The notes under the pieces are model-generated. The model saw only the letters and a list, made by a program, of their open reading frames with translations. It did not search any database and was not told the origin of the DNA. A DNA stretch of 17,238 bases from Elusimicrobia bacterium HGW-Elusimicrobia-2 (GTDB lineage Bacteria > CG03): the NCBI GenBank assembly GCA_002841685.1, contig PHAM01000040.1:1-17238 (forward strand). Reading direction: 5' to 3'. The translations under genes were made by a program, and so were the position numbers. Of this stretch, positions 785 to 17,238 are shown in pieces (position 1 is the stretch's first letter; every line of letters begins with the position of its first letter).

Positions 785-2304
785 TTCTTACCTTTTTTCG
801 AATGGCTATTTCTTAGAATAGCTATTTTTAACTCCTTGTAGGTCTTAGAACCTTCCAAGACTTCAAGAACAAAACCATCTTTACTGACGATGAAAAACGT
901 GGGATATGTTTCCACTTTTGAAAAAGGATACGCCATAAAATCAACCATAATAAGCGTATAGTTAACATCTTTTGTTTCAAGTAAGCGTTTTGCCGTCATT
1001 TTATTCCCGCGACTTATTCCTATAATTTTCAGTTCCTTCTCCGAAAAAGCTTCGTTTAATTTATTCAGAACATCTATTCCATCATACGATGTTTCACAAT
1101 AGAGCTTGCATACTTCTGGTTTCCAAACATTGATAAGAATTAAGTCGGCGCCTAACCGCGACAATTTTACCAATTCCCCATTCGTGTCTTTAAATCCAAA
1201 ATCTTTTAATTCTTCTCCTTTTAAATGGCTAACTTCTGTTTTCCAGACGCCTTCTTTCCCTTTGCCTGCGGAATAAGCCCATTTGCGGTATTGTTCAACT
1301 CTCCACTGCTTACCCCATACATATTCATCCCAATCATCTCCAAGCCATTCAAAAAGTTCCTGCGCCATTTTTTTATCGTCTGCCTGACAGGCCATGCTTA
1401 AAAACTCGTTAAGGTGCCTGTTTGAAGTGCCGTAAAGTTCTTCAATATCTTTCATTCCCTGCTTTAGTTTTTCCCAATCCACATTCACAACGCCGAAAAA
1501 ACCATCGTGAGGATAATATCTGGACAGCATTTTACAGATATAAGCATAGATAGACGAACCCTTTTTTCCGCCGATTTGTTTTCGGATTTCTAGAGCGAAT
1601 TCTTCCCACTCTCCTTTCTTACCATGCCACCGCGGGAGGAGATAATGCGCTTTGGTATAATAAAAATCCTCAAAAAAAGGCTCACAAGCTATCGCCTCAT
1701 TGAAATGTTTTTCATATCTCTCTCTTTCCCAACCTTGGCCGAGGGCTGCCGTCTGCATAATACTGTACCACATGGGATCCTTCTTCCTCTTAGCTTTGCT
1801 CACTCCGTTTAGAACTTTTTCGGCTTCAGCCAGCCGGTTGTGAAAAACATCCCATTGGTTTTCATTAACGGTATAAGATACGCCGCCACCGCGGGCTTGC
1901 CATGCATAATCACATAAAAATGCGGCATAACCGATTTTTGCCGTTATAGAATCAGGATATTTTTTTATCCATTTTTTGAATATATTCTGATGATTTTTCC
2001 ATACTTCTTCAGTTGCCTTTGTTTTGCCCGGCACTCTTCTCAAGCCCGCATAAAAACAGACAATTTTCCAGTCCCCGCCCGGATATCGGCTTTTGGAAGT
2101 TCTTAAAATACCCGCTAATTTATCCAGATGCTCATATTCTTCATTGGCAAAAAATTCTGACATCCCTTCAATAAATTTTTCTTCGTTCGGGGGAAACTTA
2201 TACGCCGCGTCTATATACTGCCCAAACATGAGCAGTAAAATCAGAAAAAAAGGATGGTAGAAACCCCCTTTCTTTTCTAATTTCTGCGAATTTCTAAAAA
2301 TCAT
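781..2304 (-). CDS. DUF4034-like protein with C-terminal TlpA/thioredoxin-like domain
   Basis: 507 aa. Residues 16-34 form a hydrophobic stretch after a basic N-terminus (signal peptide or anchor; no lipobox cysteine). Residues about 45-300 resemble the DUF4034 family: an early L-D-x-L-A-G-x-L-R segment, GGDWK near 77-80, and a LLPRWHGKKGEWEEFA segment near 222-237. Residues about 355-500 read as a TlpA/AhpC-type thioredoxin fold: a short beta strand LILINVW (388-394), a cysteine pair C399 and C403, a second strand KIIGIS, then the cis-proline region ETYPTFFIVSKDG (465-477). The oddity is CKLYC, a CxxxC in place of the usual WCxxC, so classic disulfide chemistry is uncertain. Likely periplasmic. 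Start and stop both overlap neighbours (ATGA on each side), placing it third in the operon. The fold assignments are by eye; the thioredoxin part is the firmer one. Confidence 0.75.
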   Translation of the reverse strand: MIFRNSQKLEKKGGFYHPFFLILLLMFGQYIDAAYKFPPNEEKFIEGMSEFFANEEYEHLDKLAGILRTSKSRYPGGDWKIVCFYAGLRRVPGKTKATEEVWKNHQNIFKKWIKKYPDSITAKIGYAAFLCDYAWQARGGGVSYTVNENQWDVFHNRLAEAEKVLNGVSKAKRKKDPMWYSIMQTAALGQGWERERYEKHFNEAIACEPFFEDFYYTKAHYLLPRWHGKKGEWEEFALEIRKQIGGKKGSSIYAYICKMLSRYYPHDGFFGVVNVDWEKLKQGMKDIEELYGTSNRHLNEFLSMACQADDKKMAQELFEWLGDDWDEYVWGKQWRVEQYRKWAYSAGKGKEGVWKTEVSHLKGEELKDFGFKDTNGELVKLSRLGADLILINVWKPEVCKLYCETSYDGIDVLNKLNEAFSEKELKIIGISRGNKMTAKRLLETKDVNYTLIMVDFMAYPFSKVETYPTFFIVSKDGFVLEVLEGSKTYKELKIAILRNSHSKKGKK

Positions 2305-3575
2305 TTTTCACTCTTCCCTTTTTCCAAATCTTCAATTCTTTCATCTAGGAGTTCATTCCCTTTTATATTTTTGAACGGCTTAAGTTTTTCAGCTTTGATT
2401 TTTTCCACAAATAATTTTAATTTCTCATCAGAGGGATCGTATTTGATTGACCTTTCCCAATAGAGGGTTGCCTTTTTTATATCCCCAAGAGCGTAATAAG
2501 CCGAACCCAGCCGTTTCCACGCCAAAGCGTCTTTATCATTTTCAGCCAAAACTTCTTCAGCCAGCGAAATTGTTTTTTCATATTTTTTATCATAAAAAGC
2601 TTCCAGCGCAATATGGAGTTTTTTGTCACACTCGCTGTATATCACCTTATTCTTTTGTTTGTCCCTGCCCCAGTTAAACATATTTTTAAAAAATTGAGGA
2701 CAAAGCGGATTATTGCTGACTTCCCATACGTCCACAACCGGCATCCCGTTCTCAAATTCTGTGATTTCACCAAGTATGCGCTGGAAACGGGCGTGTTTCC
2801 CCATATTCATATGGAGTTTATCCACAGGATCAAATATACTGCCGATGCCTATTCCTTTTTTTGTAGAACCTTTATAAAAAAAGATATCATCCCTGTACGC
2901 CGTTACAGGCCAGTAAATTATAGTTCCCGAATACTTTTTCATATCATTAACTGCTTCGTCGTAAGAAGGCCCTTGACGGCCTAACTTTCTTTTGGCGAGG
3001 AGAAAATCATTTTTTACCATCTGCTGATAATATTCCGTCGCCAAAAAAGAGACCAATGCCCCTGCCGCGAATACCGCCGGAAACAGCCATTTATTTTTTG
3101 TCTTTCTATTTTGCGCGGCTAAAGTTTCTGTATAAATTCCATTTATTATCTCAATGGTTTTATCAGCTAACAAAATCATCTCATCTTCCGTAATATCCCG
3201 CTGTGGTAAAGCAATAACTTCTATATCCGGCAAAATGCTCAGAAAAGTTCTTTTAGCTATGTATCCGTAAAATTCCCGCCGCGTTTCCGCCATCTTTTCA
3301 ATCTTTAATTTTCCGGGCTTCTCACTTCTTAACACGGCTGAGCTGCCATTCCCCGTCGCCGTATCAATAATTATCACTTTATTTCCCTGACCGATGTTAT
3401 TCAGTTTTTCTGTGATATTATCGTCTTCACCGCAATCGCATCTGATAAGTTCTATATCTTTACAGAAAAATTTATCTCTGAATTCTTCAAGTTTTTCCAC
3501 CAGACGGGCAATGATATTTGTTTCGTCGCTCTGGACGTCAATTACAGTCAAAACAAAAAACTTTGAATTATTCAC
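2301..3575 (-). CDS. possible M52-like domain, one membrane helix and C-terminal TPRs
   Basis: 424 aa, starting at GTG (3575) with GAGG about 10 bases upstream; the GTG overlaps the upstream TGA as GTGA. Residues 5-150 resemble, by eye, the hydrogenase-maturation protease fold (HybD/HycI, M52): strand FFVLTVIDVQ, then SDE (16-18) and LVEKLEE, KVIIIDTATG with D71, a VLR strand, and IEVIALP near 118-124 followed by a long helix. In HybD the nickel ligands are Glu16, Asp62 and His93; here E18 and D71 fit the first two, but no histidine is found in the third region. One transmembrane helix lies at 163-182. A middle domain (about 210-290) is unassigned. Two TPRs sit at about 316-383, then a K/E-rich tail. 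With no hydrogenase genes nearby, a protease role is unlikely; a membrane scaffold is my preference. Confidence 0.65.
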   Translation of the reverse strand: MNNSKFFVLTVIDVQSDETNIIARLVEKLEEFRDKFFCKDIELIRCDCGEDDNITEKLNNIGQGNKVIIIDTATGNGSSAVLRSEKPGKLKIEKMAETRREFYGYIAKRTFLSILPDIEVIALPQRDITEDEMILLADKTIEIINGIYTETLAAQNRKTKNKWLFPAVFAAGALVSFLATEYYQQMVKNDFLLAKRKLGRQGPSYDEAVNDMKKYSGTIIYWPVTAYRDDIFFYKGSTKKGIGIGSIFDPVDKLHMNMGKHARFQRILGEITEFENGMPVVDVWEVSNNPLCPQFFKNMFNWGRDKQKNKVIYSECDKKLHIALEAFYDKKYEKTISLAEEVLAENDKDALAWKRLGSAYYALGDIKKATLYWERSIKYDPSDEKLKLFVEKIKAEKLKPFKNIKGNELLDERIEDLEKGKSEK

Positions 3576-5701
3576 TTATTCTTTTCCTCAATGAATTGCT
3601 TTAGCTCTTCTAAATCCTCGTCAGGCAAAGTAGCTTTAATAGAAATAGACGCCCTTAGAATCAGTGACCCCTTTGGCTGGTTTGCTACAACCATGGGGTT
3701 CTCTTTTAAAAGTTTGGGTATAACTTGCAAAGACACTACGCCGCTTGTACTGATATCTAAAGGAATATGACCGGACTTGGCGTCAATAAACATACGGATG
3801 TCTTGAATGCTCACTTCAGGATTCTCGCTCTGGACTGAGAAGCTAAGGCTCTGATTGGTTACCCCCTTGATGTGCGAGAAGTCTAACTTAGCTATTTTGC
3901 AAACTGTTCGATATGGTATTGTAGCCGGAGCTGATTCATCCTCCACCATAACGGCTGAGGTACTTCGCATTTCTCTCTTATATCCGTTCATTTTCGCCTT
4001 GATGGCGCCGAGATGTTCGTGGAATGTAACGCAGTCGGGAATAAGTTCAATCGCTCTCTCTATCTCCTCCTTTGCCTCGCTGTATTTTCCCATTTTATAA
4101 AGAACCCATGCCCTCGTATCCCGGTAATATCCTTCCCATGATTTTTCCAGACCCATCCTTACGGCTTTGTCCGCCGCCTCAAGAGCTGTCTCATAATCCC
4201 TTTCGAGTTTGTCGGCAAGAATGTATGCCAGCATATTGTAAACATTTGCCGAATATTCAAACTCCGCGAAACTTTCACTGTTTATCAGTTCTTCAAAAAC
4301 TTTCAGCGATTTTTCATATTCTCCGGCGTGATAATAGGTCATCGCCGCAAAATATACCGTGTCGCTATAGGCGGTTTTTCTGTCTGATATCGCTGCCAGC
4401 ATTTTGTCTATTGCCGGGACGATATTTCCGAAATATTCTTTCTTTTCTTCTTCCGGGATATCGGCGTAGTCGGGACACCATGCGCCGAGGATAAACCCCT
4501 GTTCGAATTCTTCCGCCGCTTTTTTGTATTCTTTAAGTTCAAGCAGTCTCCAGCCGAAGCGATAATGCATGTAAAGGTAATTGTCATTTACGCCGGTTAC
4601 TTGTTTTTTACAATACTCAAATTTATTTTTATTTCCTTTTATGTGATTAATTCGCGCCAGATAAGACCATGCCCATAGATTTTTATTGTATTTTTTTACC
4701 GCTTTCACAAGTAGTTTTTCCGCCAATTCCAAATTATCTTCACCGCCGAGAAGATAATTATAAACAAGCGCTATTCCATAATTGGTAAGAGCCGCCGGAT
4801 TTTTTGCTTTTTCCATTTTTGTTTTTTCAAATTTTTGAATATACGCTGACGGATCAGCATATATAAAATTATTCTCATAATTATGCGCAATTTCAAGATA
4901 GAATTTTTCCTTTTTTGAAAGTTTAAATTTGGCGTTGTCAATCCCCCATGGAGAGGTGAGTTTTCCGTAGAGAAAAGAATCTTTTTCCACGCTTTCGCCA
5001 ATCCCGTAGGACTCGGCGGCTTTTTTAAGAAAAATCATTTCAAGCCTATGCTTTAAAATCTCGTCATCCGTTTTTTTAATTCCCGCTAACCCCATTAATT
5101 TGTCTATAACTTTCCCTATTTTCAAGCCATTTTTTTTAGATTCTTTCGAGTATCTTTGCGTTTCATATTTGCGTATAATATTTTCTCTGAGCGTTTTTTT
5201 AAGACCTATTTTCCCCATTATCCAATTGAGTATTCGGATTTCACGCTCGACTATTAGTGTGTAACGATATGACATACTGCGCGGGCGAATGCGGCTTAAG
5301 GAAACCACTCCCGAATCTCCGTAAAATACCCATGACCACACATATTTACATTTGCCGTTTTCATCTTTTAAGTCCATTTCAGTGACGCCTATGACATGAT
5401 TTGAAATATGGCCGTATTCTTTTTTTAAAGCGTAAATAATAAAGTTGGGCGAATATTGTTTCTTCACTTTGTTATAGGCATAGTCAGGCACTGGAATTCT
5501 ATCCTCTATAACAACATTAAGACCAAAACGTTTTTCCGCGCGCGCCTTCAGAAATTGCATAATATCGTCATCAACATTTCCGACTGCAGCAATAACCAGA
5601 GGAAAAGATTGAGTTTTATCAGAAATTTCAGCACTTAATACCTGTGCAAAGTTAAAACAAAATATCATCAGGATGAATAAAGCAATATATATTTTTCTCA
5701 T
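3572..5701 (-). CDS. secreted TPR protein with archaemetzincin-like N-terminus lacking the zinc site
   Basis: 709 aa. Residues 1-23 form a signal peptide (basic start, hydrophobic core, VLSAE cleavage region). Residues 33-170 follow the archaemetzincin (M54) pattern: VIAAVGNVDDDIMQFL, a KKQYSPNFIIYAL segment at 80-92, HVIGVTEMDL at 102-111, and GVVSLSRIRP at 131-140. Where active members have HExxHxxGxxHC, this protein has NWIMGKIGLKKT (159-170): both histidines, the catalytic glutamate, the third histidine and the cysteine are gone, and only G-L is kept. Residues about 300-400 and 440-572 hold TPR repeats, the last pair starting near YNMLAYILAD and ending with KMGKYSEAKEEIERAIEL. Residues 595-690 look like a beta-rich domain, perhaps DUF2987-like (low confidence). 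It is the first gene of the operon; the Shine-Dalgarno before 5701 is weak. Most likely a periplasmic protein-binding scaffold rather than a peptidase. Confidence 0.8.
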   Translation of the reverse strand: MRKIYIALFILMIFCFNFAQVLSAEISDKTQSFPLVIAAVGNVDDDIMQFLKARAEKRFGLNVVIEDRIPVPDYAYNKVKKQYSPNFIIYALKKEYGHISNHVIGVTEMDLKDENGKCKYVWSWVFYGDSGVVSLSRIRPRSMSYRYTLIVEREIRILNWIMGKIGLKKTLRENIIRKYETQRYSKESKKNGLKIGKVIDKLMGLAGIKKTDDEILKHRLEMIFLKKAAESYGIGESVEKDSFLYGKLTSPWGIDNAKFKLSKKEKFYLEIAHNYENNFIYADPSAYIQKFEKTKMEKAKNPAALTNYGIALVYNYLLGGEDNLELAEKLLVKAVKKYNKNLWAWSYLARINHIKGNKNKFEYCKKQVTGVNDNYLYMHYRFGWRLLELKEYKKAAEEFEQGFILGAWCPDYADIPEEEKKEYFGNIVPAIDKMLAAISDRKTAYSDTVYFAAMTYYHAGEYEKSLKVFEELINSESFAEFEYSANVYNMLAYILADKLERDYETALEAADKAVRMGLEKSWEGYYRDTRAWVLYKMGKYSEAKEEIERAIELIPDCVTFHEHLGAIKAKMNGYKREMRSTSAVMVEDESAPATIPYRTVCKIAKLDFSHIKGVTNQSLSFSVQSENPEVSIQDIRMFIDAKSGHIPLDISTSGVVSLQVIPKLLKENPMVVANQPKGSLILRASISIKATLPDEDLEELKQFIEEKNK

Positions 5702-6063: not shown

Positions 6064-6076
6064 ATTTGGCTAAACT
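6048..6076 (+). promoter_or_regulatory. promoter of the DUF4143 ATPase gene
   Basis: TTGACA (6048-6053) is a perfect -35 and TAAACT (6071-6076) a four-of-six -10, spaced by exactly 17 bases. The predicted transcription start falls at about 6082-6084, on or next to the ATG, which would give a leaderless or nearly leaderless mRNA. This agrees with the lack of any Shine-Dalgarno before the start. Confidence 0.55.
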
Positions 6077-6081
6077 TGGCT

Positions 6082-7260
6082 ATGATAATATCAAGAACTT
6101 TGAAATCAGAATTAGTGCGGCTGGCAAAGAAATATCCGGTCGTCACGCTGACGGGTCCGCGACAATCAGGAAAAACGACGCTCTGCAAAATCGCGTTCCC
6201 TAAAAAACAATACATATCAATGGAAAATCTTGATATACGCAGATTTGCGCAAAACGATCCAAACGCTTTTCTAAAACAATTTCCCCATGGCGCAGTTTTA
6301 GATGAAATCCAGAGAGCGCCGGATTTATTATCTTATATTCAGACAATCGTTGATGAAAAAAAACATGCGGAGGGAATGTTCATTTTAACCGGCTCGCGTC
6401 AATTCGAGCTTATGTCTTCTATCAATCAGTCACTGGCCGGAAGAACGGCAATAACCCGGCTTCTTCCTTTTTCATTTTCAGAAATTTATTCTGAGAAAAA
6501 GAAATTGCCATCTCTTGAGACAATCCTTTATACGGGATTTTATCCGCGAATTTTTGACAAAAAATTGAATCCGACGGAAACTCTGTCTTTCTACACCACC
6601 ACCTATTTGGAAAGAGACGTCCGCGCGGTGCTCAATATTAAAGATTTATCCAAATTCGAGCTATTTTTAAAACTTTGCGCGTCGCAAACAGGCCAGATCC
6701 TCAATCTTTCAAATCTCGGCAACGCGTGCGGCATTAATCACAACACGGCAAAAAACTGGCTGTCTGTTTTAGAAGCAAGCTATATTATATTTCTCTTAAA
6801 GCCTTATCACAAAAATTTCAAAAAGAGATTGATAAAATCACCCAAACTTTATTTTATAGATACGGGGTTAGCCGCATTTCTGCTTGGCATACAGAACCCT
6901 GAACATTTGGACACTCATCCCCTGAAAGGCGCTTTATTCGAAACATTCATTGTTTCTGAATTCCTCAAAGCGCGTTTCAACAAAGTTAAAACCAATAATC
7001 TTTATTATTTCAGAGACAGCCTCGGAAATGAAATTGATTTAATACTTGATTATGGCGATACAAGTGTTCCCGTTGAGATAAAAAGCGGGCAGACGATTGC
7101 AAATGATTATTTTAAAAACTTGCGATATTATTCAAAACTGCGGGGAAACAAAACAATAAAAGCAATACTGATTTATGGAGGAAATTTATCCTACAAAGAA
7201 GGAACAATAGATATTGTCGGATTAACTGATTTCAATAATTTATTAAAAAATATCGGATAA
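6082..7260 (+). CDS. AAA_14 / DUF4143 family ATPase
   Basis: 392 aa from ATG 6082; a TTG six bases upstream is in frame but overlaps the promoter. Walker A is TGPRQSGKTT (24-33), Walker B is AVLDEIQ, and the sensor strand is FILTGSRQFELM, all standard for AAA_14. The C-terminal half is DUF4143: SFYTTTYLERDVR, a winged-helix-like stretch (LSNLGNACGINHNTAKNWLSVLEASYI), PKLYFIDTGLAAFLLG, then LKGALFETFIVSEFLK, YYFRDSLGNEIDLIL and VPVEIKSG. That tail (E..V, D-L-I-L, E-I-K) has the look of a PD-(D/E)XK-type nuclease core, as in other family members. These proteins are widespread, poorly understood and often genomic orphans. It is a single-gene unit, convergent with comEC (22 bases apart), probably autoregulated through the inverted repeat at its promoter. 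The gene is full length for the family. Confidence 0.93.
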   Translation: MIISRTLKSELVRLAKKYPVVTLTGPRQSGKTTLCKIAFPKKQYISMENLDIRRFAQNDPNAFLKQFPHGAVLDEIQRAPDLLSYIQTIVDEKKHAEGMFILTGSRQFELMSSINQSLAGRTAITRLLPFSFSEIYSEKKKLPSLETILYTGFYPRIFDKKLNPTETLSFYTTTYLERDVRAVLNIKDLSKFELFLKLCASQTGQILNLSNLGNACGINHNTAKNWLSVLEASYIIFLLKPYHKNFKKRLIKSPKLYFIDTGLAAFLLGIQNPEHLDTHPLKGALFETFIVSEFLKARFNKVKTNNLYYFRDSLGNEIDLILDYGDTSVPVEIKSGQTIANDYFKNLRYYSKLRGNKTIKAILIYGGNLSYKEGTIDIVGLTDFNNLLKNIG

Positions 7261-7282: not shown

Positions 7283-9373
7283 CTACCAGGTCTCTTTTAT
7301 CACTTTCCGGCCGAGGCGTATTATGACTTCTTTGTCCTCGAACTGGGGGATTATCCAGTGTTCGCAGAATTCATAAACATCGCCTATGAAAACATCGCAA
7401 TGGCCGGGCGCGGTTTTCTCGCCGAAAGCATAGATTATTTTACGGAGCGTCTGAGCGCGGCCCACGCGCCGAGAGAGAACCAGGGCATCGCCGGAAAGAG
7501 ATAATTTGAATCCGTTTTCTTCGAGGGGCGCGCTGAAATCCCTGAACAGCCCCCTGCCCCTGCCCTCATAAAGAAGATTCTCAAATTCGTTTGTCCTCCT
7601 GACGCCTATCCTGAGATAAAATTTCCTGACCAGATCTTTTTCCATGAGCTGTTTGAATGAGCCAATGTGATATATGGACGAGCTGAGTATAAAACATCCC
7701 TCTATTTTTTTTATGCCGTGATATTTTATGAATTGGTCATATTCCGGCGCCATGTTCCCGGCTATATCCGAAGCCACTCCTATCTGGTACCATTTGCCGG
7801 ATGAGGTGAAAAAACAGCAGTCCCCCGAACCGAATGCCGGCACATAAAACCTGAAAGCCCTGCCGCTCTTTATCTGGCCGCACACAGCGATGGCGAAAAG
7901 TAGGCCAGCCGCGGCGATGATTCTCTTTTTCTTTGAAAAAATAGAAAAAATCAGAGCGTAATAAGCGATGTATGTTAATGCGCTTTGATGTCCCCATCCG
8001 GCCATAGCGTTCGGCACAATGGAGGTCGCTCTAAGAAGTTTGTCAATCAGCCATATAAAGAAACTTCCGGAAGCGGCGAAAACGCCGGCTGCACGCTCTG
8101 CTGCTCCTTTGACGGCGGACGCGAGGACAGCGGAAAACAAAAAAGAGGGAACCGGAAAAAAAGAGGCGCAAAAAAAAGAAAAAAGCGAAAATACCAGCAC
8201 TGCGGCAATAGGTATCACGAGCAAATTCATAACGGGTGTGATGACGGAAAATTCATAAAAAGTCTCGTTTAAAATAGGAATTACCGTTAACTGGCACCCT
8301 ATCCCCACAGCTAACGGCACAGCAATAAAAGCCGGCATAATTTTTTTAAAGGCCTTAGAAAGCGCAGGCGAAATAAAAATTATTCCCGCCACCGCAAGAT
8401 AAGAAAGTCTAAACGCCACCGTAAAAAGCCACAAAGGATTCACGATGAGCATAAAAAGCGCCGCCGCGAAAAGACTGCTCCCCAGCACTCCTCTTCTGCC
8501 TGTCCTTAATCCCACAGCCATTATGGAAAACATTATTGCCGCCCTGACGCTGGATGGCGTGGCGCCGCAAAGCAGAGAATATAAAAACGCCAGCGGAATG
8601 CTTACCAGCAGAGCGCTGCCGCGGCTGATAAAAAAAGACAGGAAAACCACCGCGATGGCCGTAAACAAACCTATATGCAGGCCGCTGACGGCTAAAAGAT
8701 GCATAAGCCCCGAGCGGCGGAAATTTCTTATGATGTCCTTTTCAAGGCCGGACTTTTCACCCCACAAAAAACCTCTGACATAAGCGGCCGAATCACTGTC
8801 AAAATATTTCCCTATGCTCTTATCCGCGGCGGATCTCAGCCCCACGACGAACTTTTTGAAACCCGACGGATGGTCCCTCATCTCTATCTTTTTGGCGAAT
8901 ATCCTTCCGCACACGCCCTGAGCCTCGTTTATTCTTTTCCAGTCGGTTGAAAAAGAGTTTTTCTTCTCATCCAGCCCGGAAAAAATCCCCGCGACGGTAA
9001 CGATGTCTCCGGCCTGCGGCAGGCTTGGACGCCCGCCCTCAAGCTTTTCACCGCCGCCATGCCACACGAGGACATTCCCCTTCTCCGTTTTCAGCGCGAA
9101 ACTGTCCTTTTTAGGGAACAACCGCACCTCGCCCGAAACGGTCACAGCGCCGGCGGGATATGAAGATCGCGGGATCGCTCGCATTGATAAATTGAGAAAT
9201 CCCATAACAAAGACGATCGCGTATAAAAACCCGGCCTTAACCGTGGGTGCGCTTAAAAGGATCAGGATCGCCGAAAGAACGGCGAAAACAGCGAAGTGTT
9301 CCCGCGCGGCGAATATTCCCAGTATGAAGGCGGCCGTGACCGGATAAATCGGCGGCAGCCGGAAAAGTTTCAT
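7283..9373 (-). CDS. comEC: ComEC/Rec2-type DNA channel with degenerate MBL domain
   Basis: 696 aa inner-membrane protein of the natural-transformation DNA channel family. N-terminal helices (about 10-62) are followed by a DUF4131/OB-like region (about 75-165: VTVSGEVRLF, AGDIVTVAGIF). The Competence domain begins with GLMHLLAVSGLHIG (222-235), the family hallmark, and runs through multiple helices to about 475. The C-terminal beta-lactamase-like part (505-696) is degenerate. Where ComEC has DVGQGDA it has VPAFGSGDC, where it has LIDTG it has YQIGVAS, and where it has SHxDxDHxGG it has LSSSIYHIGS. No second HHG or GD motif can be found. The tail also lacks the family's usual ending. Start ATG overlaps the SLBB gene's stop as ATGA (9373-9370) and GAGGAG lies close upstream. 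Last gene of the competence-type cluster. The channel function is plausible; nuclease activity of its own is not. Confidence 0.9.
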   Translation of the reverse strand: MKLFRLPPIYPVTAAFILGIFAAREHFAVFAVLSAILILLSAPTVKAGFLYAIVFVMGFLNLSMRAIPRSSYPAGAVTVSGEVRLFPKKDSFALKTEKGNVLVWHGGGEKLEGGRPSLPQAGDIVTVAGIFSGLDEKKNSFSTDWKRINEAQGVCGRIFAKKIEMRDHPSGFKKFVVGLRSAADKSIGKYFDSDSAAYVRGFLWGEKSGLEKDIIRNFRRSGLMHLLAVSGLHIGLFTAIAVVFLSFFISRGSALLVSIPLAFLYSLLCGATPSSVRAAIMFSIMAVGLRTGRRGVLGSSLFAAALFMLIVNPLWLFTVAFRLSYLAVAGIIFISPALSKAFKKIMPAFIAVPLAVGIGCQLTVIPILNETFYEFSVITPVMNLLVIPIAAVLVFSLFSFFCASFFPVPSFLFSAVLASAVKGAAERAAGVFAASGSFFIWLIDKLLRATSIVPNAMAGWGHQSALTYIAYYALIFSIFSKKKRIIAAAGLLFAIAVCGQIKSGRAFRFYVPAFGSGDCCFFTSSGKWYQIGVASDIAGNMAPEYDQFIKYHGIKKIEGCFILSSSIYHIGSFKQLMEKDLVRKFYLRIGVRRTNEFENLLYEGRGRGLFRDFSAPLEENGFKLSLSGDALVLSRRVGRAQTLRKIIYAFGEKTAPGHCDVFIGDVYEFCEHWIIPQFEDKEVIIRLGRKVIKETW

Positions 9374-9765
9374 TTCTCCTCGACGACTTCCATCGGCGGC
9401 AGAAAATAAGTCTTGGGCGGCGCTTCGCCTACGCCGATCCTCTTGAAAAAAGATTTTTTCGGCACGGCGATAGATTCCCTGTCATCAAGAAAATCATCCA
9501 TCTGTATCTTTTCGCCGTCAGCGCGCTTCGTAAACCCTCCCGCGGCGCTGATGAGATCCCCGACAAGGGATCCTTCGGAAAGATAATATATCCCGGGGTT
9601 CAGAACTTCGCCTGAGACAGAGCAGGCTATTTTAAGCGGCGCTTTGGACCGGGGGGAGACGATAGTGGGAGGGGTTTTCGGCGAACGGACAAATTCAAAT
9701 TTCTGCCACAGCAGGCCCGCCACGGCGACAGCCAGAAGAAGAAAAAGAAATTTCTTTTTGCTCAT
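9370..9765 (-). CDS. SLBB-domain protein (ComEA N-terminal-like)
   Basis: 131 aa with one membrane anchor or signal segment (about 5-20). Residues 45-103 match the SLBB pattern: VSGEVLNPGIYYLSEGS, DLISAAGGFTKRAD, then DDRESIAVP. In Firmicutes-type ComEA, an SLBB domain precedes a helix-hairpin-helix DNA-binding domain; here the protein ends after a short proline-rich tail with no HhH motif. It is directly upstream of, and coupled to, comEC, the usual comEA position. I infer a periplasmic ligand-binding partner of ComEC; DNA binding would need another protein. The SLBB pattern also occurs in polysaccharide export proteins, but the rest of that family (Poly_export) is absent. Confidence 0.8.
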   Translation of the reverse strand: MSKKKFLFLLLAVAVAGLLWQKFEFVRSPKTPPTIVSPRSKAPLKIACSVSGEVLNPGIYYLSEGSLVGDLISAAGGFTKRADGEKIQMDDFLDDRESIAVPKKSFFKRIGVGEAPPKTYFLPPMEVVEEK

Positions 9766-9875: not shown

Positions 9876-10418
9876 CTATGTCTTTAAAGCTTTTTCTATT
9901 TCCGTGAGCGCGAGCTTTATTTCGGGCGAATCTTTGAATTTGTCCCTCGCGGCGGAGATCCTGTTTCCGGCGGCTGTCACTATCTGTTTATTCTGGGAAT
10001 GGTGCTGCTCAAGGCGGTCTAAAAGCAAGTTCACCGCGTCAACCAGTGACCCCAGCTCGTCGCCCTTTCTTATTTTCACCCTCATGGAATAACTGTCTTC
10101 GCCGCCTGTGAGTATCTCTCCTATGTCCTTTTCAAGCCTGTAAACGGGCCCGAGTATCCTGTTGGAAACGAGTATGCTCACCGCCACGCCTATGATCAAC
10201 AGCAGCACGAGCTGGCCGATGAGCGTCTGAGAAAGATTCTTCAGAAGAGCGTCCAGCTCCGGACCCCGGGGAACATACATATCAATATAATTCACGAGCG
10301 CCTGATATGTTATAAGACAGGTGCCGGCCACAAGGAGCATGGAAAAACCCTGCAGGGCGGCAAGTTTAAACTGGAGTTCTTTTTTTATCAGAAGCCTCCG
10401 GCGGACATATTGTTTCAT
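9876..10418 (-). CDS. solo HAMP-domain membrane protein
   Basis: 180 aa. A basic N-terminus (YVRRRLLIKK) is followed by one membrane helix at about 19-42, a short extracytoplasmic loop (43-66) and a second helix at 67-85. The HAMP domain (86-138) shows the typical entry RILGPVYRLEKDI (87-99) and the KGDELGSLVDAVN segment at 118-130. A short charged helix to residue 180 replaces the kinase, cyclase or methyl-accepting domain normally attached to HAMP. Start ATG has GGGAGG five to six bases upstream. It sits 21 bases after the tandem nuclease gene and before the SLBB and comEC genes, so it may transmit a signal to, or organise, the membrane DNA-processing complex (inference). Confidence 0.85.
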   Translation of the reverse strand: MKQYVRRRLLIKKELQFKLAALQGFSMLLVAGTCLITYQALVNYIDMYVPRGPELDALLKNLSQTLIGQLVLLLIIGVAVSILVSNRILGPVYRLEKDIGEILTGGEDSYSMRVKIRKGDELGSLVDAVNLLLDRLEQHHSQNKQIVTAAGNRISAARDKFKDSPEIKLALTEIEKALKT

Positions 10419-10439: not shown

Positions 10440-12140
10440 CTATCTTTTTTTATTTTTCAGTTCAGAACCAGAGTCGTCCGGGCCCAGCTCGCTGTCATTA
10501 ACGCGAAGATCCTCGCTGATGTTCATAACCTCGGACTTATTTTTTTGCAGTATCTCATTTTTGAGCGGGCACTCGTCAAGAAAATCGCAGCCGCCGCAGT
10601 ATTTATTGATCGACGGCAGAAACAGCTTATCCGCCTCATCCTTCGGCTGTGACGCGGCCTCTCCGGTATTCCTCAGAATGCCCTCACCCAGACGGTCTAT
10701 CAGTTCAAGCATATTCTTGTAATCCTCATCCGTGCGGGCCGTGCGGATTATCTTGTTGAAGCGGAAGAAAACCAGAGCCGCTTCCTTTATTTTTATGCCG
10801 AAATACTTCTCGCACACCCAGCTGTACATGGTAAGCTGCAGGTCATTATCCACCTCTTCCTGGGTCCTGAGAAGAGGATCGGTTTTATAATCGTAAATAC
10901 TGTATGTGCCGTCGGCATTGGACTCTATCCTGTCAATAAAACCAACAAGCAGATGCCCCGCGCCTATACGGGGGCCCTGGAGAGGCGCTTCAAAATAAGG
11001 CTCGGTTTTCCACGCTTTTTGCCACTGCCCTTTCACGTGCTCCTCATAATAGTTCTTCATCCATTCCAGGCCGTTTTCAAAAAAAGCCTGCTCCTGCTCG
11101 TCGGATTCATAACCGCCGCTCTCCCAGTTATTCCGGTAGCTTTCCAGCAGGAATTTGAGGGACGGTTCACCGAGACCGTCATAAGAATAAAGATCCTCCA
11201 TCGCCTTATGCACCGAGAGCCCTATCGAGAAGAAATGGCGTGGCTTCGTCGCTATTTTGTCCACATATATCCTTTTGTAATTCCTCGGGCAGTTCTTATA
11301 CAGCGAGAATTTGGAATATGACATGGCCAGCCGCTTGCTTTCCAGCACTCTCTTATATATGCGCGGGTCAGGGAGAAGTTTTCTCGCCGGGCAAACCGGA
11401 GCGTATTCGCACCACGAACACAGCGGGCCCTGCTGGGGAGTGAAATAGCCCAGCTTTATTTTTTTAACCGTCTCGCCGACCGTCTTCTCGCAGTCGGCTA
11501 TATCTTTCTCCGTAGGCTCCACGGCGATCTTCACCCCGTGGTAAAGGTTATAGACGGAATATGAGCCCAATTTCCCTCCCCAGCGCTGGCGTGCCACGGA
11601 ATAATTGATGACACTCTGGATATCAGATCTCAGCGAAGCCTCGTTCTGAAATCTCTTGCCCGTCTTGAACTGCACGATCTCGATCTTCCCTTCCGGATTT
11701 CTGGACACCTGTCCATAGCGAACGTTAAAAAGATAACCCGCGAATTTTCCGGAGACATTTTCCTTCACCGCGATTATCCTGTTCCTGAAAAAGCGGTTTT
11801 TGTTCACGTAATCAATAAGCATCCTCAAACCCGCCAGCCAGAAAGTGTCTTCCTGCTGGGAAGACGCGTAGCCCTGACTCTTCCAGCAGTTCTTGAGTAT
11901 CTCAAAAAGCTCTTTGTCGTCGAGGTCCGCTATGGCGCCCGAATGCATGACTTCAACCGCGTCCTGTAAACTGTTAGCGAAAGACAGGTAATGGGAAGAC
12001 GCGTAACTTTTTTTAGCCGAAAGATACTGATACTGATATTTCTTCCCACAGGCGAGATAGGCGCTGATCTTGCCCGCGGAAAGAGTGCCGGCGCCCGTAA
12101 AAAAAGCCGCTATCTTCCTGAATAATTTTTTAATTCTCAT
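10440..12140 (-). CDS. tandem Fe-S PD-(D/E)XK nuclease (RecB/AddB/Cas4 type), first module inactive
   Basis: 566 aa from ATG 12140, which overlaps the upstream TGA as ATGA; an in-frame ATG at 12194 would overlap by 58 bases. Two PD-(D/E)XK modules follow one another. Module 2 (about 270-527) is intact: SYSKFSLYKNCPRNYK opening, H311, D403 in GFIDRIE, D417 and K419 in YDYKTD, Q435 in DLQLTMYSW, and cysteines C284, C515, C518 and C524 (C...CxxCx5C), the iron-sulfur staple known from AddB and Cas4. Module 1 (about 19-255) has the same order and the same cysteines (C31, C241, C244, C250), but Q59 in place of the histidine, N139 for the first aspartate and Q157 for the second (IVQFKTG), keeping only the lysine and Q175. 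So one dead and one probably active nuclease unit share a chain. Together with the pseudohelicase gene two positions upstream it recalls AddB, split. Confidence 0.88.
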   Translation of the reverse strand: MRIKKLFRKIAAFFTGAGTLSAGKISAYLACGKKYQYQYLSAKKSYASSHYLSFANSLQDAVEVMHSGAIADLDDKELFEILKNCWKSQGYASSQQEDTFWLAGLRMLIDYVNKNRFFRNRIIAVKENVSGKFAGYLFNVRYGQVSRNPEGKIEIVQFKTGKRFQNEASLRSDIQSVINYSVARQRWGGKLGSYSVYNLYHGVKIAVEPTEKDIADCEKTVGETVKKIKLGYFTPQQGPLCSWCEYAPVCPARKLLPDPRIYKRVLESKRLAMSYSKFSLYKNCPRNYKRIYVDKIATKPRHFFSIGLSVHKAMEDLYSYDGLGEPSLKFLLESYRNNWESGGYESDEQEQAFFENGLEWMKNYYEEHVKGQWQKAWKTEPYFEAPLQGPRIGAGHLLVGFIDRIESNADGTYSIYDYKTDPLLRTQEEVDNDLQLTMYSWVCEKYFGIKIKEAALVFFRFNKIIRTARTDEDYKNMLELIDRLGEGILRNTGEAASQPKDEADKLFLPSINKYCGGCDFLDECPLKNEILQKNKSEVMNISEDLRVNDSELGPDDSGSELKNKKR

Positions 12141-13144
12141 TCTTTCGCCGCCTTTATCGTCTTCCCGTCGGATATCAGCTTTATCCTGTCGCATTCATCC
12201 GTTCTGAAATATTTAATATGCATCATATCAAAAAAAGCCAGCATTTTTGAATTCGGGTATTCTTCTTTATTCCCGAGGCCCGAGGAAACGAGACATATTG
12301 ACGGAGCGGCGGTTTCCATAAAGGACAGCGAGAATGTCTGCCCCGAACAGAAATTCGGCGTCACCAGGACATCGGATTTGAGACTCTGATAGGCCGCCGT
12401 GTGGTCGAGCGCCGACAAACCGGCGTTGCCCGCGTATATCACGGCGGTGTTGCCGTAGACAAATCTCAATATCATTGACGCGTTGCTATCAAAATTCTCA
12501 AAACCCGAATAATCTATGAGAGGGCTCAAAACCTGCACGGTCATATCCTTCTCACTATAAATGACATCCCCCACCGCGACATTTTTCAGCAACCCCGATT
12601 TCTGCGCCTTCTCCGTTATATTCCTGTATGTTATGAAGCGCGGCCCGGGAAAATAAACGCCCGACGCCAGAACTTTTTTAACGGGAAAACCCTCCTCGAA
12701 CATCGACACCGCCCCGCCGCAGAAATTCTCGGCCGGCGATGTCAGTATGAGATAGTCAAGAGATTTTATTTTACGACGCTCGAGATATTTTTTAATAGCG
12801 GTTTTCCACACATCTTTGCCCTCCATAAGGCAGAAATCAGCGGCTTTTTCCGGCGTTGAGAGAACGGGGGGACCAGCGTCCACAAGTATGCTTTTTCCCG
12901 ACGGGGTGATGAACAGCATGCTGTAACCGTGCCCGACATTGAACAAAAGCGCTTCCGCCACAGCCGCGTCTTTTTTAACATCTGGAGCCGTTGGAGTCTT
13001 CAGGATCACCCACAGGGTAAGCGCCGCCGCCAGCACCGCGAAAAAAACAGCGAAGGGATGTATGACCATAGACGCTGATTTAAGTTTCGCGAAAGCGCGG
13101 GCCTGCTCTTTTCTGTGCTTCTGATATTCGGCTATGAATTTCAT
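12137..13144 (-). CDS. membrane-anchored ComEC-type MBL domain without metal ligands
   Basis: 335 aa. A basic N-terminus and one helix (about 28-48) anchor a single metallo-beta-lactamase-like domain of the ComEC C-terminal type, without the channel. The fold markers are all recognisable: LLFNVGHGYSMLFITPSGKSILVDAGP (about 66-92), SNASMILRFVYGNTAVIYAGN (220-240), SDVLVTPNF (257-265), RTDE..RIKLISDGKTI at the end. Every metal-binding position is changed: the HxDxDH motif reads TSPAENFCGG (135-144), GD reads GN (239-240) and HHGS reads NFCS. It therefore cannot bind zinc in the usual way. ATGA overlaps link it to the pseudohelicase upstream and the nuclease downstream. A structural partner or competitor of the ComEC MBL domain is the best guess. 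Confidence 0.82.
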   Translation of the reverse strand: MKFIAEYQKHRKEQARAFAKLKSASMVIHPFAVFFAVLAAALTLWVILKTPTAPDVKKDAAVAEALLFNVGHGYSMLFITPSGKSILVDAGPPVLSTPEKAADFCLMEGKDVWKTAIKKYLERRKIKSLDYLILTSPAENFCGGAVSMFEEGFPVKKVLASGVYFPGPRFITYRNITEKAQKSGLLKNVAVGDVIYSEKDMTVQVLSPLIDYSGFENFDSNASMILRFVYGNTAVIYAGNAGLSALDHTAAYQSLKSDVLVTPNFCSGQTFSLSFMETAAPSICLVSSGLGNKEEYPNSKMLAFFDMMHIKYFRTDECDRIKLISDGKTIKAAKE

Positions 13145-14865
13145 AAGAATTTCTTCAGCACCCTTCCCATAAGCCCCGGGCCGCCGCCTTTTTCAAATGA
13201 CGACGGCAGAAATCCCTCAAGCGGCGATGCCTCCGTCTCAAAAGGCTTCTTCCAGTATAATTTGGGCGCTCTTTTAAGCGGCCTGGTCAGAAAAAGGCCT
13301 TTGGCCGCGCGGGCCGCTATCTTGTAAAAGATCATTTTCATTCCCGCGGGATAGGTATAATTCTCAAAGGCCGGCACAAAAACAAAATCAAACTGATATG
13401 CTTTTGAATAATATTCCGGCACCAGTTTGACAGCGCGCTGGGACCTCTCTTTCATTTTCCGCAGATCACCTATAAGAATATCGTTCCTGTCTTTGATGGC
13501 ATCATAGGGGCCGAAACGCCTGAGCTGTTTTTCAAACCAGAAGCATGAAGCAGAAAACTGTTTAGGGGTAAAATTCTTCTTCAGCACCTCCAGGGCGGGC
13601 GCGGTGATGTTATTTTCCAGAAGGCCCGCCGCAGCCTCAGCCAGCGGGATGATCAGACCGGCGCCGGGATATTCCATACAGTCAAGGCCGTACTTTACGG
13701 CCAGCGGGGAAAACTTCTGGGGAAAATCATATCTCTCATATACCACGCCTATATCCGGGGCTTTGCCGCCGCGGGCTACGATCTGTTTCATCTGAAAAGC
13801 TATGAACTCCATCTCATCGTCTTCATCATCCGCGTCATGCCGGACGAACGCCTCGTCGGCGACTCCGGAAGATGAAACGATCTGCCTGCCGGACATGCTA
13901 GACAGGCATTCTATCACCGTCGGGCTGTGCCTGTAATCATCGTCGGAGACAAACACTTCCGACGGTTCGCCCATTTCAATATCACGCGGCTTGTAAAACG
14001 CCAGCGAGAAATCGCCGGCGGCGGTTAATACGCCGTCTTTTGAAAAAAGCCTCAGGATCGGCCATTCGCCGGGCAGAAACCTCTCGGCGTCGTCAACAAG
14101 CACCCTGCTGTATCCGGAAAAATGCCGCTGAAAAAAGTCCCTGTCAAAAGCGTAAAACCTTTTTATGAGATCGCCCATCCCCACCCTGTCAAAAAGCTGG
14201 CGGCCTTCCAGCGCCACCTCGTAAGAGCGGAAGATCTCCTCAACATCATCTCTCAGATCCTCCGGCACAGAAGCAAGGGACGCCGTGAGCTTGCGGTTCA
14301 GAACCATCCAGAAATATACTTTTCTGTTTATGCCGTTGCGGATGCCGCTTAGGATTTCCATCCACTTTGACGAATACGCGAAATCCTCTATCATTCCCAG
14401 CCGCACAAGCAGGGACTGTCCGAAAGAGGTGTCTTTCAGCGCATCCTGCAGAAAAAGGCTGGCCGTGGCGAATTTTATCTTCTCAAACGCGTCCTTTTTT
14501 TCGGGAAGCAGCGCCGAGAGTTTCGCCTTTATCTCCTCCGGCTGATTCTCAAAGGACACAAGAAATAATATTTTCTCCGGCGCTACGCCGGATAGCACAT
14601 CCATCGCCGTGATCCGCGCAAGCGCTTCCGTTGATCCTCCGCCTGCGGCAATATCGGCGAATGTTATTTTATTGAGAAGCGCTGAAAAAACAATTCCCGC
14701 CTGAGACAGGCTCAGGCCCTGGAGCGCTTTTGAAACGAGCGTCCAATCTTCTTCCGGAACGCCCAATGAATCAAAATGAGATATTACCTGCTCCGGAGCC
14801 GGACACACCGAAAAAAGCGTGTTCAGTTCATGCTGCAGTTCAAAATTCAATTCGTTAAAATTCAT
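13141..14865 (-). CDS. UvrD/AddA-like SF1 helicase with broken Walker A (pseudohelicase)
   Basis: 574 aa. No intact helicase motif set, but the order of UvrD motifs can be followed. Motif I is AAGGGSTEAL (73-82), missing the GKT lysine. Motif Ia is PEKILFLVSFENQPEEIKAKL (97-117), matching the TFTNKAA region. Then IKFATASLF (Ib), VLVDDAERFLPGEW (255-268) for the VDEAQD Walker B, LTAAGDFSLAFYKPRD (280-295) for GDPDQSIYxFRG with the glutamine lost, and DYRHSPTVIE (310-319) for NYRS. Later come DIGVVYER (371-378), FDFVFVPAFENYTYP (492-506) for motif V, and IAARAAKGLFLTRP (516-529) for motif VI with the arginine kept. ATP hydrolysis is unlikely. AddB proteins are likewise degenerate helicases that serve as DNA-reading scaffolds. 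First gene after the 114-base element; ATG 14865 has only a weak GGGAC upstream. The gene's end overlaps the MBL gene (ATGA). Confidence 0.75.
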   Translation of the reverse strand: MNFNELNFELQHELNTLFSVCPAPEQVISHFDSLGVPEEDWTLVSKALQGLSLSQAGIVFSALLNKITFADIAAGGGSTEALARITAMDVLSGVAPEKILFLVSFENQPEEIKAKLSALLPEKKDAFEKIKFATASLFLQDALKDTSFGQSLLVRLGMIEDFAYSSKWMEILSGIRNGINRKVYFWMVLNRKLTASLASVPEDLRDDVEEIFRSYEVALEGRQLFDRVGMGDLIKRFYAFDRDFFQRHFSGYSRVLVDDAERFLPGEWPILRLFSKDGVLTAAGDFSLAFYKPRDIEMGEPSEVFVSDDDYRHSPTVIECLSSMSGRQIVSSSGVADEAFVRHDADDEDDEMEFIAFQMKQIVARGGKAPDIGVVYERYDFPQKFSPLAVKYGLDCMEYPGAGLIIPLAEAAAGLLENNITAPALEVLKKNFTPKQFSASCFWFEKQLRRFGPYDAIKDRNDILIGDLRKMKERSQRAVKLVPEYYSKAYQFDFVFVPAFENYTYPAGMKMIFYKIAARAAKGLFLTRPLKRAPKLYWKKPFETEASPLEGFLPSSFEKGGGPGLMGRVLKKFL

Positions 14866-14901: not shown

Positions 14902-15015
14902 ACAGCAGACGGCATCCGGAGCGGGCCATATGAGTGAGGGGTTTTGCCCCGTGCTCCGAACGAATTGGCAACGAACCGCATACGTGAGCGGCCGTCTCCG
15001 GATGCCGTCTGCTGT
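14902..15015. repeat. 114-base inverted-repeat (MITE-like or attenuator) element
   Basis: Perfect 20-base arms (14902-14921 and 14996-15015; the right arm starts CTCCGGATGCC and ends GTCTGCTGT) enclose 74 bases. Four more bases (GGCC) pair just inside after two mismatches. The loop holds a small GGGG-TTTTG-CCCC hairpin (14938-14950) and two related words, CATATGAGTGAG and CATACGTGAG. It fills most of the 165-base gap between comEC and the pseudohelicase gene. There is no clear target-site duplication at the ends and no T-run after the arms. It could be a small non-autonomous mobile element or a transcript-stabilising/attenuating hairpin. Confidence 0.65.
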
Positions 15016-15030
15016 GATTGTTTATGGGTA

Positions 15031-17238
15031 TTAGAACACATCAAGGGAATCCTCATTGGACGCGGCGCCCTCCTGAGCGTCATCCAGTTTTTTCACGCTC
15101 GTCCAGCTGTATGTTTTACCGTCGGAGACTATTTCAACGGCGCCGTATTTATCCGTCCGCAGGGCCTTCGCGCCCATCGCTATCGCCTTATTTTCGGTCA
15201 AGAGTATATCCGAATCGGAAAAACTCCAATCCTTCTGATAAGAATAAGGCAGCACAACCAGAGAGGGGCTCGCCGCCTCAAACCACTCGCCGAGGCAGGC
15301 ATCCATGTGCCCGTGATAAGGGGCTATGAGCACATCGCATTTCAAATCCAGATTTTTATCCTTCAGCATCTCATATTCCGCGTCATTCATTATGTCCGAG
15401 GGCATGATCATTACGAAATCACCGTATTTTATTTTCAGCGCTATTGAGTTGTTGGCGAGATCGTCATTCGTGCCTACTATCTTTTTTTCCGGCGGCCACA
15501 GGACGCTCACAATAAAATCTTTGCCGGACACTTTTTCCGAATAAATTATATCACCCTTCTTCGCTCGGTAAAGGGGCGCTCCCTTTGTGGCGGAAATAAA
15601 TTTTTTGAAACCTGCCGCCGTCTTATAATCCTCAGCCGGTATCAAAGGAGTCCTCAGTATATAAAAATAATTACGGTACAGCGTCTGCGCGTAAAAACCG
15701 TCCCATTTTTCTTTCAGATTCTCGTCGGCGAGAAAATCAAGAAATGCCTGATATGACCTTTTTTTCACAAATTCGCGGGGCTCATAGGGCGTAAAGACTT
15801 TCTTTGCCTTAAAATACGGGAATATCTCCGCGGCGTTGCCCGTATTTTCCGGTTTGAGATTTGAAAGGACCACAGCTTCAAACGAATCGATGTGATAGAG
15901 GGTAAAGGCGGCCGCGAGACCGCTGAAATTAAAATCACCCTCATCGCCTATTGTCGTGTCCACGAGGATGCTTTTACCTCCGGGGGTGCGGATTATATTG
16001 CAATTCCCGAAACCTATGGCCATGATGGTGGCCTTGAATTCAGGCGCTGTTTTCTCTTTGAATTTCCAGCCGTAAAGAAAAAAAGCCAGCGCAAAGGCGA
16101 TCGCTATCGCCGAGGCCCTGATATACAGCTCACCCCTGGAATAATATTTCAGGCGCTGGATCATTTCTTCGATAAGATCGAAAACGGGTCTGTAAAAAGC
16201 GATTAGAAAAACGCCGGCGTAATACATTATCAGCCACGACGAAGTGAAAGTCGGCATAAAAGGATAGGTAAAGGCCTTGAAAAAGAAATGGGCGACACCG
16301 GTAAAACCTATGCACAGCCAGTAATTTCCGGCGTTAAGATAAAGAGCTAATAGCGCGCCCATGGCAGGCATATTGAGCGCCGAAAAGAGCGCCCCTATGA
16401 GCCCGGCGAGAAAACCGGCCATCACGATCAGCCCTATGAGCGGAATGGCTATGAAATTGGCGAAGACCCCCGCCGCCGGAAACCGGTGGAAATAAGCGGC
16501 TGAAAGAGGGATCATCATCCCTATCTGTATGGCGAACTGCGCGTAAAAAAACTGGACAAGACTCTGCAGGGTCGGCGGCATTCTGTTCATAGCAAGGCCG
16601 TCCAGGGGTTTGACCGCATGCAGGCGCGAGGCGAAAATAACGCTTAAAATAATCGCGACTGAGGTCATCATAAGAAAACTGCTGTTCCTCAAAACATCAT
16701 ATTCGACGCAAACGACAGCCGTGAGCAAAAAGACCCAGAAGAAAAAAACGATGAACATCCATGAAGTGACATATTTAGTAAAAAACTTTTCAACCGGGCC
16801 TGTCAGATAGCACAGCGACCACACGGCCATATATGAAAGAACGAAACTCGCTGATGGGAGAAGAAGAGGCCCGCCTATATTTATACCCAGCACTTTCTCC
16901 AAAAGATCAAACGAGAGGATTATAACGGCGGAAACAGGTATAGTGAGAGCCGTTGAAGCTTTAAGCCCCAGGCCGAAAGTGTTGAACAAAACGAGCATAG
17001 AGTACATCAAGGAAGCGCGCATCGTCGCGGGCCGGGCGCCCGTTATAAGTGTAAACATAATAAGGCCTATGGTGACCACAAACCATCTAGGCTTCGGCGG
17101 TATTCTTAAAATGGAACATATCGCAAAAAAAAGCGCCGCTATAAAACCCGCGTGAAGGCCGGAAACAGAAAGCACATGCGCCACGCCCGTGGCCTGAAAT
17201 TCGAATTTCATCTGGGGCGGCACCCCCCCGCGCGTTCC
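15031..17238 (-). CDS. comEC: ComEC/Rec2-type DNA channel, 5' end outside the window
   Basis: The frame is open to the right edge. The visible part starts inside the Competence domain, immediately before TGVAHVLSVSGLHAG, so roughly 200-250 residues including the DUF4131 region are missing from view. Numbering from 17223: the Competence domain with many helices spans about 12-345, a single helix 368-386, and a C-terminal MBL-like domain 396-715. MBL motifs are partly worn: AIGFGNCNIIRTPGGKSILVDTT (402-424) stands for DVGQGDA...LIDTG, VLSNLKPENTGN (452-463) for SHxDxDHxGG with no histidine, MIMPSD (605-610) for LLTGD, and VLIAPYHGHMDA for HHGS with one histidine kept. The end RTDKYGAVEIVSDGKTY is typical of ComEC. 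First gene of the visible cluster; stop TAA at 15031 precedes the inverted-repeat element. Confidence 0.9.
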   Translation of the reverse strand, partial: GTRGGVPPQMKFEFQATGVAHVLSVSGLHAGFIAALFFAICSILRIPPKPRWFVVTIGLIMFTLITGARPATMRASLMYSMLVLFNTFGLGLKASTALTIPVSAVIILSFDLLEKVLGINIGGPLLLPSASFVLSYMAVWSLCYLTGPVEKFFTKYVTSWMFIVFFFWVFLLTAVVCVEYDVLRNSSFLMMTSVAIILSVIFASRLHAVKPLDGLAMNRMPPTLQSLVQFFYAQFAIQIGMMIPLSAAYFHRFPAAGVFANFIAIPLIGLIVMAGFLAGLIGALFSALNMPAMGALLALYLNAGNYWLCIGFTGVAHFFFKAFTYPFMPTFTSSWLIMYYAGVFLIAFYRPVFDLIEEMIQRLKYYSRGELYIRASAIAIAFALAFFLYGWKFKEKTAPEFKATIMAIGFGNCNIIRTPGGKSILVDTTIGDEGDFNFSGLAAAFTLYHIDSFEAVVLSNLKPENTGNAAEIFPYFKAKKVFTPYEPREFVKKRSYQAFLDFLADENLKEKWDGFYAQTLYRNYFYILRTPLIPAEDYKTAAGFKKFISATKGAPLYRAKKGDIIYSEKVSGKDFIVSVLWPPEKKIVGTNDDLANNSIALKIKYGDFVMIMPSDIMNDAEYEMLKDKNLDLKCDVLIAPYHGHMDACLGEWFEAASPSLVVLPYSYQKDWSFSDSDILLTENKAIAMGAKALRTDKYGAVEIVSDGKTYSWTSVKKLDDAQEGAASNEDSLDVF

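Follow-up and report, generated by a model that had tools for sequence, protein, structure and literature searches.

The window analysed here, a stretch of 17,238 nucleotides (nt), is one contig (PHAM01000040.1; contig 80) of the 1.78-Mb metagenome-assembled genome of Elusimicrobia bacterium HGW-Elusimicrobia-2. It carries a competence cluster in which a UvrD-like pseudohelicase, a membrane-anchored metallo-β-lactamase-type (MBL) protein and a tandem PD-(D/E)XK nuclease with iron-sulfur (Fe-S) cysteines are encoded with a comEC gene to either side of the set. In four bacterial phyla or more, the home phylum included, the tandem nuclease is encoded beside ComEC, and this conserved linkage is apparently undescribed in the open-access literature searched. 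In the window's family the C-terminal domain of the nuclease is, judging by its motifs, the sole nuclease site in the cluster that is still intact. We consider it somewhat better than an even chance that the cluster represents a modified natural-transformation machinery, in which ComEC leaves the nuclease work to an Fe-S nuclease of the cytosol and the pseudohelicase serves as an ATP-independent DNA-binding subunit. The source genome has the handle G000 and the window's family is f1; other genomes are cited by handle (G002 etc.), and phyla are separated by handle only.

A tandem nuclease with one intact site beside ComEC

The genes on which the argument turns are the following (aa, amino acids):
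15031..17238, minus strand: comEC1, 735 aa in the window, 5' part lost at the contig end; Competence domain and C-terminal MBL domain without metal-binding motif
13141..14865, minus strand: pseudohelicase, 574 aa; UvrD/PcrA-like SF1A core, ATPase motifs lost, no transmembrane segment, predicted cytosolic
12137..13144, minus strand: membrane-anchored ComEC-type MBL, 335 aa; one N-terminal transmembrane segment (about 21-39), catalytic motifs lost in the window's family
10440..12140, minus strand: tandem PD-(D/E)XK/Fe-S nuclease, 566 aa; the longest open reading frame, 12194-10440, has 584 aa
7283..9373, minus strand: comEC2, 696 aa; Competence domain (PF03772, 2e-47), C-terminal MBL remnant unrecognisable

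An earlier note on this DNA had pointed out an inactive UvrD-like protein of 574 aa, an Fe-S nuclease of 566 aa and, between their genes, one for a membrane-anchored pseudo-MBL, set in a competence cluster with a comEC gene on either side. All three genes are indeed present on the minus strand, and PF03772 matches both flanking products (3e-31 for ComEC1, 2e-47 for ComEC2). ComEC1 is also matched by ComEC_Rec2 TIGR00361 (8e-23), and some clusters carry ComEA-type genes in addition. By this domain content, the competence context of the cluster appears real.

The nuclease starts at a conserved ATG at 12140, where its relatives start as well, which gives the 566 residues of the note. It contains two PDDEXK_1 domains (PF12705, 139 bits against a cut-off of 22), each with four Fe-S cysteines of the Cas4/AddB type; all eight are conserved in the alignment. 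The four-cysteine site is common to AddB and Cas4 and is not AddB-specific. The C-terminal domain is intact, with catalytic residues H329, D421, D435 and K437 (584-aa numbering) invariant in the alignment. The N-terminal domain of the window's family is catalytically dead: its H, D and D are changed to Q/R, G/S and Q/S, while the Lys is retained. This loss is complete in the window's family and only partial elsewhere. The structure model (pLDDT 83) has its closest folds in the Cas4-family ACE1, AdnA and the AddB nuclease. Because it has no transmembrane segment and carries Fe-S cysteines, the nuclease should be cytosolic; the pseudohelicase has no transmembrane segment either.

In ComEC1 of the window, the fused MBL domain has SNLKPENTGN at the HxHxDH position. 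The HxHxDH/HxDxDH motif is absent from the fused MBL of all 19 nuclease-linked ComEC1 proteins (e.g. TNPLPENIGG, TNPSLEHMGG, SNLKPENTGN), whereas 17 of 30 control ComECs from a general sample keep it (Fisher p=3e-5, in a test that ignores relatedness and with the motif scored by regular expression). For some f1 ComEC1 rows the motif column was misplaced in the alignment, and for these the motif was read separately.

The separate MBL protein is most like the ComEC C-terminal region (ComEC_Rec2, 9e-16). Its single N-terminal transmembrane segment has a positively charged N-terminal flank, so that by the positive-inside rule the MBL domain is predicted to lie outside the inner membrane. It is a pseudo-enzyme in the window's family, as had been proposed: LTSPAENFCGG and PNFCS replace HxHxDH/HxDxDH and HHG. 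Outside the family, the motif is intact or near-intact in most clusters. Loss of the separate-MBL and nuclease N-domain sites coincides with the presence of the pseudohelicase. It is because the fused MBL, the separate MBL and the nuclease N-domain all appear dead in the window's family that we take the C-terminal PD-(D/E)XK domain for the only remaining site.

Two other candidates for the nuclease were rejected. Cas4 in CRISPR adaptation does not fit the family thresholds (TIGR00372, 31 bits against 65; PF01930, 16.6 against 22.7), and no cas genes were identified in the window. A defence system was set aside as well: PADLOC gave Cas4-type nuclease matches and weak single-domain matches only, and no system.

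The cluster is conserved and under purifying selection

The order comEC1-pseudohelicase-MBL-nuclease-HAMP-SLBB-comEC2 is kept in five other genomes of the family (G002-G006), as far as their contigs reach; the contig of G001 starts inside the MBL gene. Such recurrence is not chance, and the conserved arrangement that the earlier note proposed to look for in relatives was thus found in every one of the five where it is readable. The pseudohelicase orthologues of G002-G006 are full-length and intact, at 39-96% identity.

Several active sites are lost in the window's family, and one could take the genes for decaying remnants of an active competence operon. However, the reading frames are full-length in six genomes, and the nuclease keeps its C-terminal site and all eight cysteines. 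Within the genus, dN/dS (Nei-Gojobori) is 0.12-0.16 for the pseudohelicase, 0.11-0.21 for the MBL and 0.06-0.10 for the nuclease, no higher than for ComEC2 (0.20) or AddA (0.18-0.27). The three genes are under purifying selection. Neither the frameshifts nor the relaxed selection that would mark decay are seen, and with intact frames and dN/dS of about 0.06-0.2 we consider this explanation ruled out for all practical purposes.

Beyond the family, the sister families (G008-G012, G014) have comEC1-nuclease-MBL-HAMP-SLBB-comEC2, with no pseudohelicase. In a first other phylum, the nuclease adjoins comEC at all four loci of three genomes (G044 twice, G191, G326), and in a second it does so in G246, G386, G387 and G388. 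In a third, the order is ComEC-ComEA-MBL-nuclease in G091 and G391, the ComEA carrying a helix-hairpin-helix (HhH) domain; G392 has ComEA-MBL-nuclease, and G389 MBL-nuclease at a contig start. HhH-type ComEA receptors thus occur in clusters of other phyla, the window's cluster having an SLBB-only protein without HhH. Two loci of the G044 phylum (L145:1053-4634, L146:6053-9472) encode a long form of the nuclease, 1139-1193 aa, with ~500 aa of unassigned sequence inserted in the N-domain.

Related genes were met during this survey. In G256, a 695-aa protein that joins a ComEC-type MBL to four ComEA-type HhH domains (L140:501-2588) is encoded ~4 kb upstream of a 485-aa relative of the tandem nuclease. 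In the G246 phylum, a membrane-anchored protein of 139-143 aa with a putative small endonuclease fold adjoins comEC (L166:12347-12766, L164:2819-3250); its G246 counterpart (L135:3331-3756) matched no Pfam family. A Pfam check of one cluster neighbour, L134:5382-8324, assigned no family. The source genome itself encodes a 244-aa single-domain relative of the nuclease C-terminal half (L131:4797-5531, contig 17; 6e-62), adjoining a dihydropteroate-synthase-type (Pterin_bind) gene; G002, G003 and G006 have the 244-aa gene as well. On contig 18 (L116:3294-6249), a gene for a 257-aa single-domain PDDEXK_1 nuclease is directly followed by one for a RecD2 helicase, and a similar pair is present in G001 and G004.

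The pseudohelicase is a family-restricted addition, not half of an AddB

No Pfam or NCBIfam model matched the window pseudohelicase alone, so its identification draws on a six-sequence profile and a low-confidence fold. With this profile, UvrD/PcrA structures come up at E=8e-8, PF00580 matches four of the six members, and Foldseek with the structure model (low confidence, pLDDT 57) finds PcrA at E=2e-8, and also UvrD/AdnB. None of the six retains Walker A, Walker B (motif II), motif III or motif V/VI; they have GGGSTE in place of GxGKT, VDDAER in place of DExQ, GDFSxxFY and other replacements. The description of an inactive UvrD-like protein is borne out. An active SF1A helicase of the UvrD/PcrA kind was rejected on the same grounds, the likeness being one of fold only.

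Full-length pseudohelicases occur in the window's family only (6 of 386 genomes; one further genome gives a partial, weak match). A genome scan with the single window protein returned one locus only, since the family is small. In hhalign the pseudohelicase scores 116 with AddA, 76 with UvrD and 70 with AddB (E=1e-7 for AddB), and its hidden Markov model matches UvrD and AddA, with no AddB at E<1e-3. By these comparisons, it appears to be a family-restricted addition that is nearer UvrD/AddA than AddB.

The earlier note had read the pseudohelicase and the nuclease as a split pair with about the length and content of an AddB, to be weighed against any ordinary AddAB elsewhere in the genome. We took an AddB to be one polypeptide of ~850-1150 aa, with an N-terminal helicase-like part and a C-terminal single Fe-S nuclease domain, encoded beside AddA. 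Here the two parts are separate genes with the MBL gene between them, and the nuclease has two PD-(D/E)XK/Fe-S (PDDEXK_1) domains where AddB has one. No AddA was found near the cluster. An ordinary AddAB is indeed present on other contigs: contig 38 encodes an AddA of 935 aa with intact Walker A (AGAGTGKT) and DEFQ, with an AddB end beside it, and the end of a further contig (C28) has helicase-like sequence compatible with the start of AddB. Repair is therefore already covered; relatives have complete AddB-AddA pairs.

Gene fission could still be imagined to have separated an AddB into helicase-like and nuclease parts, whose products come together again and serve recombination. The two parts do show a distant relationship to AddB (hhalign E=1e-7 for one, Z about 14 with the AddB nuclease for the other) and their lengths add up. 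However, since sister families and three other phyla have the nuclease but no pseudohelicase, the nuclease was not derived by removing the helicase part of an AddB in the window's family. As it is a tandem protein there too, with a separate AddAB in the genome and its relatives and a pseudohelicase that leans towards UvrD/AddA, we rejected fission as very unlikely, and the split-AddB reading falls with it.

Layout of the cluster and its surroundings

The remaining features of the cluster are:
14902..15015, no strand: 26-nt inverted repeat, 92% complementary, 62-nt loop, in the gap between comEC1 and pseudohelicase
9876..10418, minus strand: HAMP-domain membrane protein, 180 aa, two transmembrane segments; kept in the cluster throughout the home phylum
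9370..9765, minus strand: SLBB protein, 131 aa, ComEA-like (MAG0490 family), no HhH domain; PF10531 7e-12, NF045978 4e-8

The genes were said to be all joined by ATGA overlaps. This is true of three junctions (pseudohelicase/MBL, MBL/nuclease and SLBB/comEC2); gaps of 165, 21 and 110 nt separate comEC1 from the pseudohelicase, the nuclease from the HAMP gene and the HAMP gene from the SLBB gene, respectively. The inverted repeat in the first of these gaps may be a REP-like or regulatory element. It is recognisable at the same place in G003 and was not seen in G002, G004 and G006.

On the opposite strand, an AAA_14/DUF4143 ATPase gene (6076-7260) adjoins comEC2. Further on, a run of overlapping TPR-protein genes (314-5701), one product of which has a C-terminal AhpC-TSA/redoxin domain, has a G+C content of 0.35-0.41, against 0.47-0.52 for the competence cluster.

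A proposed role in DNA uptake

We propose the following course of events for the transformation variant. ComEC1 and ComEC2 would form the inner-membrane pore, with the SLBB protein as a ComEA-like surface component. One strand would enter the cytosol through ComEC, and the tandem nuclease would meet it at the inner face of the pore and bind it through its two Fe-S modules, the dead one binding and the live one cutting, so that the imported strand is trimmed or degraded. In the window's family, the pseudohelicase would act as a non-hydrolysing clamp or guide, keeping the strand in place or in the right orientation for the nuclease domain that is still live. The dead MBL, still anchored, would keep a structural or DNA-binding function at the outer side of the membrane.

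Several points weigh against this proposal. In excerpts of PMC12455585, models place the ComEC MBL at the outer side of the membrane; with a nuclease that should be cytosolic, a one-for-one swap is thus impossible. Among the control ComECs without the nuclease, 13 of 30 also lack the MBL motif, and most other clusters encode a live separate MBL. Full-length nucleases occur without ComEC in the sequence read from G254, G133 and G362. Finally, the organism is represented by metagenome assemblies only.

The same cluster evidence would also suit a DNA digester coupled to uptake, for nutrition or as a barrier to foreign DNA, in which nearly all entering DNA is degraded and recombination is incidental. 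Such a role is possible, at a clearly lower probability than a transformation variant. The nuclease resembles the degradative nucleases of Cas4, AddB and AdnA, and PADLOC returned Cas4-type nuclease matches only; among the cluster genes, however, no partner of the toxin, restriction or CRISPR kind was identified. The genome has a DprA gene, a point against mere digestion but a weak one: DprA is near-universal and hence little proof of transformation. The sequence is compatible with recombination, nutrition or foreign-DNA exclusion as the purpose.

Alternatively, the ComEC homologues could have another membrane transport or signalling role, the cluster having nothing to do with transformation and the HAMP protein marking a sensory function. 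To our knowledge, competence is undemonstrated in these organisms, and ComEC homologues are near-universal in bacteria (PMC6299819, in part). Yet the clusters of several phyla include ComEA-type HhH or SLBB genes, and the linked proteins are nucleases, so we find this unlikely.

An elaboration of the uptake model, to which we give an equally low probability, is a RecC/AddB-like reader on the competence pore. In the window's family, the dead helicase and the dead nuclease domain would together scan the incoming single strand, as RecC and AddB do for Chi, and decide on its destruction by the live domain. If true, such a device would be a built-in sequence filter for DNA uptake on the cytosolic side.

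Significance and comparison with known systems

The MBL domain of ComEC is the usual strand-degrading nuclease; in S. pneumoniae a dead ComEC MBL is replaced by EndA, and H. pylori is without both (excerpts of PMC12455585 and PMC5031224). Which nuclease acts on the transforming strands in bacteria without an active ComEC MBL remains a question, with H. pylori as the standing case (PMC12455585, in part). The passages drawn on from studies of ComEC domain evolution (PMC6299819) and nuclease mechanism (PMC12455585, PMC5031224) deal with ComEC proteins that have lost the MBL domain or its residues, and with the EndA substitute in S. pneumoniae, and contain no PD-(D/E)XK partner. No paper with both 'PDDEXK' and 'ComEC' was found in the open-access literature, subscription papers and preprints lying outside the search; nor did that literature yield a description of the arrangement, which the earlier note had put forward as undescribed. 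The tandem Fe-S nuclease is now a named candidate for the MBL-dead ComEC1 proteins linked to it in four phyla of mostly uncultured bacteria, and the question becomes testable. The stepwise change within one family, two active sites lost and a dead helicase gained, would show how pseudo-enzyme complexes like those of RecC and AddB assemble.

With AddAB, AdnAB and RecBCD, the cluster shares two folds, a UvrD-like one and the PD-(D/E)XK Fe-S nuclease, and the two halves of the tandem nuclease each align with nuclease domains of AdnA/AddB (Z about 14-18). AddB and RecC contain dead helicase modules. Unlike these complexes, the cluster has separate genes, two nuclease domains per protein, no active motor and a ComEC context, with AddAB encoded elsewhere.

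The best single-domain structural matches come from the Cas4 family, including the Argonaute-associated ACE1 (9iac/9iab, Z about 17-18; TIGR00372, 1.6e-7). The cluster nuclease differs in falling below the family cut-off and in having two domains per protein, and in the window neither CRISPR nor Argonaute genes were identified.

ComEC1 is like the ComEC proteins with an active MBL (Bacillus, Moorella, Legionella type) in its Competence domain and fused MBL region, and the separate MBL resembles ComEC C-termini. In contrast to them, none of the linked ComEC1 proteins examined has kept the fused metal site, the separate MBL is dead in the window's family, and a PD-(D/E)XK nuclease is added.

EndA follows the same logic. 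It is a membrane-bound enzyme that works on the outside of the cell membrane, and its fold is unrelated to PD-(D/E)XK. As in the cluster, a dead ComEC MBL is accompanied in Streptococcus pneumoniae by cutting from a separate nuclease gene (PMC12455585 and PMC5031224, in part); unlike EndA, the cluster nuclease is a PD-(D/E)XK enzyme with Fe-S cysteines, predicted to be cytosolic.

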